From the NCBI RefSeq assembly GCF_020532555.1, contig NZ_JAJBBR010000005.1, forward strand, positions 310,001 to 374,000: a stretch of 64,000 nt of DNA, read 5' to 3'. The position numbers and the translations under genes were made by a program. The notes under the pieces are model-generated. The model worked only from the letters and a program-made list of their open reading frames with translations, ran no database searches and was not told where the DNA came from. Each line of letters opens with the position of its first letter. Position 1 is the first letter of the stretch. Positions 58,227-64,000 of this stretch are shown one piece after another. The stretch comes from Microvirga lenta. Lineage in GTDB: Bacteria > Pseudomonadota > Alphaproteobacteria > Rhizobiales > Beijerinckiaceae.

Positions 58227-58301
58227 GCTGCCGTAGCTCAGTGGTAGAGCACTCCCTTGGTAAGGGAGAGGTCGAGAGTTCGATCCTCTCTGGCAGCACC
58301 A
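58227..58301 (+). tRNA. tRNA-Thr (GGT) with encoded CCA
   Basis: A 75-nt cloverleaf: acceptor GCTGCCG / TGGCAGC, D arm GCTCAGTGGTAGAGC, anticodon stem CTCCC/GGGAG with loop TTGGTAA (anticodon GGT), T arm GAGAG-TTCGATC-CTCTC, then ACCA. It marks the left edge of the composition-shifted region and is a likely integration target. Confidence 0.95.
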
Positions 58302-58342
58302 GCAACTTCAAGGACTTAGAGGTTAGAGCCCAGCTCACCTCA

Positions 58343-58372
58343 CCCTCGCAGGTTCGATGAGGGGGTCTTTTT
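58343..58372 (+). terminator. Terminator after tRNA-Thr
   Basis: CCCTC / GAGGG stem with an 11-nt loop followed by GGTCTTTTT. A second GGGGTCTTTTT copy follows at 58374. Confidence 0.5.
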
Positions 58373-58394
58373 AGGGGTCTTTTTCGCGGACCTG

Positions 58395-59099
58395 TCAAAG
58401 AAACGCTGTCGTCCAGCTCCGAACGATGCCCAGATCCGCAGGGCAGGAATTCAGCGATACTCCCCAAACGGAACGTGTCCACATAATGTAGATCTCAGGG
58501 GATGCGGTCGCCAGAAATACCCCCAACACGAAGTGTATCACCCCAATCAGCTGTAAATTGACGCCACTTGCGACCGCTTCCTCGAGCCGTAGATCTCTGT
58601 CCAGATCCGCAGATTTCCGAGCCTCGACTTCCTGGGCAAGCCTCTCCGAGAGGCCGTCAAGTTTTGTTGCGGTCGTCTGAGTTAAGCTATCAAGCTCCGC
58701 TCCCAGTGATTGGTACTCGCCTTCTAGACGGTGAACTCTTTCCTCCAGAGATTGGTTTGGCGGAGGACCAGTTCTTACCTTAGCTGCCCCAACGACTGCG
58801 CCCATCCCACTCAAGCTGGTGGCCGTCAGAGTTGTGTTTACTCTTCGTCGTGGTCGGCGATCCAACCATCTCAGGAAGTTATCCCATGGCCCTGGCTTCC
58901 GGAATTGTCTCCGAATGCTGTCCAATCCTGCCGCGACAATTAGGAAGCCTACAAACTGCAGACACATGCCGCTTATCCGAAGATCCCGCTCAAAGCAGGC
59001 GAAAACCGCACCGATGACCAGGACAATCACAACTGGCGGGAGAAGTAGGACGAGCAGAATACGCAGGTCCGACAACCATCTTATTATTTGTATTAACAT
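58395..59099 (-). CDS. Hypothetical membrane protein with coiled coil
   Basis: A 234-aa protein. ATG 59099 gives MLIQIIRWLSDLRILLVLLL. Two hydrophobic helices are near the N-terminus (ILLVLLLPPVVIVLVIGAVFA and MCLQFVGFLIVAAGL). A basic loop (DRRPRRR) and a coiled coil (about 115-180) lead to one more hydrophobic segment (LQLIGVIHFVLGVFLATAS). No family recognised. GC is lower than the core. It is the first gene after tRNA-Thr, reading toward it. Confidence 0.6.
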   Translation of the reverse strand: MLIQIIRWLSDLRILLVLLLPPVVIVLVIGAVFACFERDLRISGMCLQFVGFLIVAAGLDSIRRQFRKPGPWDNFLRWLDRRPRRRVNTTLTATSLSGMGAVVGAAKVRTGPPPNQSLEERVHRLEGEYQSLGAELDSLTQTTATKLDGLSERLAQEVEARKSADLDRDLRLEEAVASGVNLQLIGVIHFVLGVFLATASPEIYIMWTRSVWGVSLNSCPADLGIVRSWTTAFL

Positions 59100-59232
59100 T
59101 ACGGCACTCACGAATGTAGGAGACGGCCATCCGCTGGGGTTTTTCACCCCAGCGGGCCGGAGGTTGGAGAAGCGGTGAGCCGGTCAGCGCGGCCGCAGGC
59201 GCAAGCCGCCGACCGGGGCCTAGGCGACTAGC

Positions 59233-59313
59233 CTACGGCAGCGATCGCCAATGCGAGCTGACGTATTCCAGGCGGCCGAAGCGGATGCGCGTATAGGCGT
59301 TGACCCATACCAT
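59233..59313 (-). CDS. Possible 26-aa peptide
   Basis: MVWVNAYTRIRFGRLEYV followed by SSHWRSLP, with AAAGGG 8 nt before the ATG. Aromatic and basic composition and a clear ribosome site argue for a peptide; its tiny size argues against certainty. No function assigned. Confidence 0.3.
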   Translation of the reverse strand: MVWVNAYTRIRFGRLEYVSSHWRSLP

Positions 59314-62410: not shown

Positions 62411-62544
62411 ATTGTTCCTCCAAATTATTGCTTGCTTGAGTAAGGCTCCGCTGCGGGTCAAACGTGCGAACGAGGTCTGACCGTTCTACCGCTGTCAGGT
62501 GATGCGCCGTCGATAAAGAAAGCAGAGCGCACCGCAATAGGTTA

Positions 62545-62937
62545 TTAAGGCATGACCTGCTCGACGCGGCAGCTCGCAGACGAGACATCCCGCCCAGAGC
62601 GGGGTTTCACATTAATCATCCCTCGACCTGGGGTAGCTCCTGGGCCCAAATTGTTCACGGCTGCGACGCTGGAGCCAATCAGCTTCTTGTCAGCGTCATA
62701 GGCTGAACACATAAACATTACCCCGCTATAAGTTACGGGACTTTTGTTCGTCACCTCGAACAATATGCGTGCGAAGCTTTCGACCGCCGCTGGGGTAATC
62801 TGGCCCACCGTCACAGAGATGAAGTCTGCGGGACGCGACTGAGCAGTGGCTGGCGCGACCATGAGCAAAAGACCCGCTACGCCAATCGAGGCCCGCTCTA
62901 TGCAAGTCTTCGTAAAATTTGTAGTGAGACCTTCCAT
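62545..62937 (-). CDS. Small secreted hypothetical protein
   Basis: A 130-aa protein. ATG 62937 has AAGGGGG 5 nt upstream. The signal peptide is EGLTTNFTKTCIERASIGVA then GLLLMVAPATAQS. The mature part (FARILFEVTNKSPVTYSGV, MFMCSAYDADKKLIGSSVAA) looks like a beta-sandwich similar to FxLYD-type domains. Two cysteines could pair. No family is certain. Confidence 0.55.
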   Translation of the reverse strand: MEGLTTNFTKTCIERASIGVAGLLLMVAPATAQSRPADFISVTVGQITPAAVESFARILFEVTNKSPVTYSGVMFMCSAYDADKKLIGSSVAAVNNLGPGATPGRGMINVKPRSGRDVSSASCRVEQVMP

Positions 62938-63040
62938 ATATTCCCCCTTTGCCTTGTCGATGCTGGCATAGCCAAGCAGCGTCCTCAATACCAGGTGGTC
63001 GCATCACACGGCTATTTCCGCTGCGATAGAACTTGGCTTT

Positions 63041-63796
63041 TCATTCCTCGACCCTCCTGCGCAGGTCCTCGATGTATTCGGCGGTCGTAAGCGGGTAGTT
63101 GATGGGGCGTCGGCGGGTAATGTCGCTCAGCCGGGGAATGCGGTTGTTGGCGCAGATCTCGGCTTCCGTCAGTGAGACTATCCCGCGACCGTCGCGCCCT
63201 TCGGCCAGACACTCCACCCGCCACTGTTCCGCCGCTTCCTTGAGGTGGCTCGCGGCTTCGAGATCGAACCTCCGGACACGGCACCGGATCGTCTCGACGC
63301 TCCGCTTGAGATCCGCCACAGCCGGAGCGTCCGACAGGTTCTGGTGGAAGATGCGGCAGGCTTCCGTCTCGCTGACCTGCTCGCGCTCCTTGATCGCCCG
63401 GACCGCGCCGGAGGCCCAGGCCGTGGCCATCTCCGTGTTAGCATCCGGTGCGGGGTTTCCCGCCGCTCGGCCTTTCGTAGAGCCGCGCAGGAACTTCCAG
63501 ATTGGGTGATTTCGTCCATCAAGGAGGGCATCGACCAGCGAAAGCGCCTCCAGCACCCCGGCGTCAGCGGCCTGCATCTTCGCGGGCGACTGATCCGAGA
63601 GGAGCATCCTCGCGAATTGAGCTTGGATCGCCAGGAGGGCGGCGGCCACTCGCTTCACATCCGGAGGCGCGTCTCCATCGACCTCGCGACCTTCAACGGC
63701 TCGCCTGACGTGATCCCGGACCTCGCTCGCGAAGAGCGCATCAGCCTGCGAATAGTCCTCCTTGAGCTTGGCAACCTTGGTATCGAGCTTCGGCAT
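63041..63796 (-). CDS. Hypothetical 251-aa charged protein
   Basis: ATG 63796 (MPKLDTKVAKLKEDYSQA) with AAGGG 7 nt upstream; an ATG six codons earlier lacks a site. The protein is highly charged and helical, with SETEACRIFHQNLSDAPAV in the middle and an Arg/Glu-rich end. No domain recognised. It is divergent from the serine recombinase, 140 bases apart, which is a common position for a recombination-associated or regulatory gene. Confidence 0.55.
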   Translation of the reverse strand: MPKLDTKVAKLKEDYSQADALFASEVRDHVRRAVEGREVDGDAPPDVKRVAAALLAIQAQFARMLLSDQSPAKMQAADAGVLEALSLVDALLDGRNHPIWKFLRGSTKGRAAGNPAPDANTEMATAWASGAVRAIKEREQVSETEACRIFHQNLSDAPAVADLKRSVETIRCRVRRFDLEAASHLKEAAEQWRVECLAEGRDGRGIVSLTEAEICANNRIPRLSDITRRRPINYPLTTAEYIEDLRRRVEE

Positions 63797-63936
63797 TAGA
63801 CAACCCTTCTTCATCTTCAGGTTGAATATCGCTTGCCTTACAACCTAAGTCTCACGTTATAATCTGTCACTTCGGTTGGGTGCGGGTTTCGATTGCCCAC
63901 ACCTTTGCGCTTTCCGGAGAATGAGAAACGAAAGGG

Positions 63937-64000
63937 ATGCTCAACATCATGCCCCGTAAGGCTTTGACCCAGGCTGTCGCCTATCTCCGCACCTCATCAA
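63937..64000 (+). CDS. Serine recombinase / resolvase, N-terminal codons only
   Basis: The frame from ATG 63937 (or ATG 63949, in frame) reads MPRKALTQAVAYLRTSS to the window end. AVAYLRTSS is the first strand and catalytic-serine region of serine recombinases (YxRxS). The rest lies beyond the window, so small resolvase versus large integrase cannot be decided. Position at the far side of a tRNA-bounded island suggests an island integrase. Confidence 0.75.
   Translation, partial: MLNIMPRKALTQAVAYLRTSS

Follow-up and report, generated by a model that had tools for sequence, protein, structure and literature searches.

The window analysed here, a stretch of 64,000 nucleotides from Microvirga lenta (bases 310001-374000 of contig NZ_JAJBBR010000005.1; the genome comprises 4.50 Mb in 33 contigs), holds towards its right-hand end a tRNA-Thr gene followed by a segment of different composition, in which lies the subject of this study, a gene for a KAP-family P-loop NTPase. 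The segment past the tRNA gene forms the left third of an element of integrative type, 17.4 kb long, that lies in the tRNA-Thr 3' end. An earlier note on this DNA had proposed a tRNA-bounded island whose duplicated tRNA end and integrase should lie further right, and both were found on the same contig: an exact 49-bp direct repeat of the tRNA-Thr 3' end, which is well above chance, and, adjoining its right copy, a tyrosine integrase gene (Table 1; positions past 64000 are window-equivalent, that is, the window numbering carried rightward). The locus thus shows the direct repeat of a tRNA 3' end with an integrase inside by which a tRNA-targeted integrative element is recognised. From repeat to repeat, both copies counted, the element spans 17,381 bp with a GC content of 56.6%, and the compositional difference stated in the note is evident as a drop in GC per kb from 0.63-0.69 across the 10 kb left of tRNA-Thr to 0.50-0.61 past it. 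The island is real, and ordinary in kind.

Comparison with relatives gave the same picture. Similarity to all 19 loci compared from the same genus spans the upstream gene and tRNA-Thr and ends at 58301-58306 (one of them, L017, itself ends 75 bp past tRNA-Thr), and synteny stops at the tRNA 3' end. Stretches of seven relatives were taken for comparison around tRNA-Thr. In G013 and G008 the next common gene (window-equivalent ~83964) follows the tRNA gene after ~2.9 kb without the element, compared with ~25.7 kb here, made up of the 17.4-kb element and ~8.3 kb of other unshared DNA. An identical gene order and GC content in all close relatives, with neither att duplication nor integrase, would have spoken against an island; the order differs, and both are present. 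In G023, G012 and G017 other integrase-like genes were seen by eye to adjoin tRNA-Thr or its second copy, and for this reason tRNA-Thr looks like a repeated integration site. The element's left 5.6 kb has matches in 4 of 48 genus genomes (E <= 0.001), full in its own and short or partial in three, whilst for the element's primase-helicase the figure is three of 48: its own genome and two others with partial matches at 27% identity. As the ~8.3 kb right of the element (window-equivalent 75636-83964) is also non-syntenic with the relatives, there is a further layer of variation around tRNA-Thr; cold-shock protein, acyltransferase and exchanger genes were seen there by eye.

The reading frame and the TTG start codon given for the NTPase gene in the earlier note stand, whereas the start was moved from 62461 to 62410, where the family consensus begins and a GGAGG lies six bases upstream, giving a protein of 575 amino acids (aa); residue numbers of profile matches refer to the longer frame of 592 aa. 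Membership of the KAP family is indicated by Pfam (PF07693, 31.8 bits against a gathering cut-off of 20), and phrog_4740 matches over nearly the full length (residues 21-569, 5.2e-66). Among 7996 candidates scored, 1795 relatives were found at E <= 0.001, and those of the 120 listed that have a name are given as hypothetical protein, P-loop NTPase fold protein, KAP family NTPase or KAP-like P-loop domain protein. In an alignment of 74 sequences, the Walker A residues G26, G29, G31, K32 and T33 are kept at 90% or above and the Walker B residues D139 and D140 are invariant, which bears out the intact Walker motifs described earlier; a YxSLFG strand, a CxDDxER motif and R234 are likewise conserved, the last of which we take to be a sensor-2 arginine of the AAA+ type. 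No membrane segment was evident (best 19-residue hydropathy mean 1.24); many KAP members have such segments, but these are not known to be obligatory in the family. For residues 1-270, the predicted fold comes nearest to ORC, Cdc6 and TnsC chains, with MuB chains also near, and the helical C-terminus has no clear match in the PDB by predicted fold. Neither a nuclease, NADase nor membrane effector domain was found in the protein.

Among the closest known systems is a candidate in PADLOC. Three PADLOC profiles match the NTPase with partial coverage (PDLC05031 at 6.1e-23, PDLC05029 at 1.7e-13 and PDLC05030 at 4.5e-11), and these models are already listed there as the candidate PDC-S49, so the protein is not undescribed in the full sense, as had been suggested, but a probable new member of a listed candidate family. 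Like the NTPase, PDC-S49 stands alone as a single gene; the match covers residues 41-404, the ATPase part and beyond, whereas the last third of the 624-position model is unmatched, and the model is a candidate by prediction. A guilt-by-embedding screen is the source of PADLOC candidates of this class, most of which await tests (PMC12988326). A search of the open-access literature gave no papers for PDC-S49 by name and no recognisable experimental work on the family, subscription papers being mostly outside the search. QatA of qatABCD, as described in PMC13279940, resembles the NTPase in layout, with a C-terminal domain of unclear kinship after the KAP ATPase, a likeness by description only; it works in a four-gene operon, whereas no QatB, QatC or QatD match was found among the scanned neighbours here. 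RdrA of RADAR and the ORC, Cdc6 and TnsC ATPases have ~7-18% identity to the NTPase in the rows listed, and their C-termini look unrelated.

New evidence for the family comes from its place in P2-like phages. Viral contigs were scanned for relatives of the NTPase, the best 80 of 101 loci were analysed, and the neighbouring proteins were clustered and their representatives named by PHROG. Among the names were the replication nickase gpA (phrog_91), portal Q (phrog_68), terminase, scaffold and major head protein; at least one of these five P2 marker types is present at 44 of the 80 loci and none at 36. Both gpA and Q are present at 32 loci and the NTPase relative lies between them in every case, with 38-70 bp separating it from the Q match at 27 of them. 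Grouping by 90% DNA identity of the NTPase gene reduces these 32 loci to 16 groups, and the independent cases are accordingly fewer. At the other 12 marker-bearing loci the gene lacks a marker on at least one side, and three of these (L165, L179 and L180) have only head genes, ~4.5-5.5 kb off. The hotspot relatives are mostly 33-39% identical to the window NTPase. In all three E. coli records examined the gene again lies between a 'replication endonuclease' and a 'phage portal protein'; in the third, terminase and late-gene pieces are flagged as pseudogenes and followed by a host gene, so that it looks like a prophage remnant in which the NTPase gene has been kept. Beside the NTPase gene in this apparent P2 prophage remnant lies a gene for 883 aa (L207:2059-4710) whose annotation includes an HsdR N-terminal domain, another possible defence gene.

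The gpA-gpQ interval of P2-like phages is reported to be a defence hotspot holding anti-phage systems (old, tin and others), non-defence cargo also being reported from it (PMC9122126). Passages on the hotspot in that paper name no KAP protein; its supplementary tables may include the family. Relatives of the NTPase occupy exactly this interval; the window copy differs in being cargo of a tRNA-Thr element and not of a P2-like phage.

The NTPase has a scattered distribution. Among 48 genomes of the genus it was found in its own alone, and across the order in 3 of 297, a figure that includes its own genome and one partial match; in the order of a Desulfuromusa homologue the figure is 12 of 98, that homologue's genome included and one partial. 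Of 72,556 plasmid records 130 match, 107 of them at 80% coverage or more, with 74 from Klebsiella and 21 from Escherichia; among 50,697 phage records there are six matches, one at that coverage. In the one Klebsiella record examined, a 108-kb plasmid with the look of a phage-plasmid, the gene lies between phage tail genes and genes for a DnaB-like helicase and primase. One type of hotspot gene was matched in 130 of 5426 complete E. coli genomes (127 at 80% coverage or more), and a second type has a well-covered match in three.

The genes around the homologues, which were studied at 80 genomic loci, are diverse there as at the viral loci. The commonest neighbour cluster is a UDG-type protein (PF03167 in the cluster representative), present at 12 of the 80, all in Deltaproteobacteria-type genomes; its gene lies 44-90 bp upstream of the NTPase gene at ten (L062, L065, L068, L070, L074, L075, L079, L084, L089 and L093) and elsewhere in the neighbourhood at L064 and L072. 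The two proteins may form a repair or defence pair. A DUF2288 gene precedes the UDG-type gene at nine loci. In three Mesorhizobium genomes a gene of DUF4238, another family with a tested defence gene, lies 211-277 bp from the NTPase gene (L071:8831-9790, L081:8876-9724 and L082:8772-9731). For a comparison of defence content, the 136 nearest open reading frames (ORFs; 130-799 aa, within 4 kb) were set against 136 of the 262 lying more than 6.5 kb off; these were picked by length alone and some must be spurious. At 1e-10, 89 PADLOC families were matched near and 77 far, families and not proteins being counted. Among the matches listed, the near ORFs include three members each of AriA, mad3 and NsnB and one each of DpdF, REase_II, PDC-S21 and PsyrT, and the far ORFs one each of GajA, RtcR, mad3, MTase_II and AbiLii.

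The remaining genes of the element are given in Table 1. Those beside the NTPase gene had been described as coding for winged-helix-like, membrane coiled-coil and secreted proteins. For the second of these, the 250-aa protein, a membrane location is upheld by hydropathy, with no Pfam match above cut-off, and one signal-peptide-like N-terminus was seen by eye. The 283-aa protein has no family match in Pfam, PADLOC, PHROG or the other profile scans, and the names shown for its homologues are 'hypothetical protein', one with a DUF3102 label, with no Pfam domain listed; a winged helix is thus not supported by any family match. The four neighbours in the window gave a single PADLOC match, at chance level (0.04), for the 257-aa protein, and ten further island proteins gave none at E <= 0.01. 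The serine recombinase whose start had been noticed at the end of the window is complete beyond it; judged by its resolvase domain it is a small internal resolvase-type protein and was rejected as the element's mobility gene, a tyrosine integrase adjoining the right repeat instead. A related small serine recombinase gene (L116:2244-3005; 71% DNA identity over 360 bp) is present in G023, where this tRNA-Thr carries another insert, 5.5 kb long. Further right, the IS5-like frames abut the GIY-YIG-like gene (both within L005:2869-3919), and by eye the insertion may have removed that gene's start. With P4-like and other integrative elements this one shares an integrase beside the att repeat, a DUF5906/VapE-like primase-helicase, a tRNA target and accessory cargo; in contrast to P4-like satellites, Pfam, PHROG and PADLOC recognised none of the P4 genes for packaging, polarity suppression or capsid sizing among the scanned proteins, and no cos search was made.

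Table 1. Features of the tRNA-Thr element, in window numbering (positions past 64000 are window-equivalent)
Feature	Position	Strand	Evidence or remark
tRNA-Thr(GGT), integration site	58227..58301	+	ARAGORN
Left copy of 49-bp direct repeat (attL-like)	58255..58303	+	exact match, E 2.6e-17
250-aa membrane protein, coiled-coil-like stretch	58395..59147	-	best 19-residue hydropathy mean 3.1
283-aa protein, convergent to NTPase gene	59665..60516	+	66 homologues at E <= 0.001
KAP-family P-loop NTPase, 575 aa	60683..62410	-	PF07693, PDLC05031, phrog_4740; start by family and GGAGG
147-aa exported-looking protein, weak FxLYD match	62545..62988	-	NF038353, 20.2 bits, below cut-off of 23
257-aa protein	63041..63814	-	no family match above cut-off
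Small serine recombinase, 232 aa, resolvase domain	63937-64635 (63937..64000 inside window)	+	PF00239, 5.4e-26
Two proteins	64721-65350 and 65338-65775		
GIY-YIG-like fragment	65868-66305		by eye
Overlapping IS5-like transposase frames	66149-66918		by eye
168-aa protein	67227-67733		
Protein with DUF5677 match	68165-69013		match below cut-off
218-aa protein	69053-69709		
Protein with weak PHROG matches	70080-70661		
DUF5906 primase-helicase	70993-73365		
Small AlpA-like regulator	73450-73749		by eye
Tyrosine integrase, beside right repeat	73972-75402		PF00589 and PF13356 above cut-off
Right copy of 49-bp direct repeat, beyond window	75587-75635 (contig 385587-385635)		exact match

The defence-gene look attributed to the NTPase in the earlier note is strengthened by the PDC-S49 match and by the relatives in the P2 hotspot, and a function in defence is likely. 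On balance we think it probable that the NTPase is a single-gene anti-phage AAA+ ATPase carried as cargo by the element, which would protect its carrier by assembling on invading DNA through the AAA+ domain and so stopping the phage. That it forms one system with its island neighbours, be it the 283-aa, the FxLYD-like or the membrane protein, is most improbable: the genes do lie side by side in the element, but the 283-aa gene is convergent to that of the NTPase, the commonest neighbour cluster of the homologues reaches only 12 of the 80 genomic loci and is UDG-type, and at three P2 loci of one sequence group (L153, L158 and L159) the NTPase gene is the sole ORF of at least 70 aa in the gpA-Q interval. 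The diversity of neighbours speaks in general against a multi-gene system made up of these genes.

Two other roles for the protein have to be weighed. It could be a STAND-like sensor in which the helical C-terminus recognises a phage protein and the ATPase oligomerises, leading to arrest or death of the cell (abortive infection) without DNA binding. An ATPase followed by a helical C-terminus is the layout expected, the mean conservation of 0.56-0.59 across most of the ATPase part and 0.40-0.48 in the C-terminal part fits with it, and STAND NTPases with C-terminal repeats are reported from the same kind of hotspot (PMC9122126). However, we find this unlikely, as the ATPase begins at the protein start with no N-terminal effector domain before it and the C-terminus shows no sign of a repeat family by sequence or fold. 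A non-defence role as an ATPase for the replication, repair or maintenance of DNA in mobile elements and phages would account for the AAA+ fold near ORC, Cdc6, TnsC and MuB chains and for the helicase and primase genes near it on the Klebsiella phage-type plasmid, and the UDG-type gene at 12 genomic loci, so close upstream at ten, keeps repair in consideration. Such a role is nonetheless rather improbable given the accessory gpA-Q location in a minority of genomes (130 of 5426 in E. coli for one type), the retention of the gene in a prophage remnant and its absence from most relatives.

As to how an anti-phage ATPase of this kind might work, its action as a DNA-loaded AAA+ ring is put forward with less weight than the defence role itself. 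DNA is the presumed substrate because the fold of residues 1-270 is nearest to ORC, Cdc6 and TnsC and because QatA reportedly binds both single- and double-stranded DNA and appears heptameric or octameric, although it is not needed against some phages (PMC13279940). Sensing infection or reaching the target may be the part of the helical C-terminus, whose conservation is on average below that of the ATPase core. With no nuclease, NADase or membrane effector domain found in the protein, the action would have to come from the ring or from a host partner.

More broadly, we offer as a tentative and still doubtful proposal that KAP ATPases of the PHROG 4740/PDC-S49 type provide a widespread one-protein immunity that works in a new manner, common to P2-like prophages, phage-plasmids and integrative elements, in which a soluble AAA+ ring would form on foreign DNA and a helical C-terminus without clear counterpart among solved structures would block that DNA. 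The present results locate an unexplained family (1795 homologues) in a hotspot from which anti-phage systems have already been demonstrated, and its E. coli members are open to direct testing in laboratory strains. Should defence be confirmed, a new mechanistic question would arise from the missing effector and the C-terminal domain with no clear match in the PDB.
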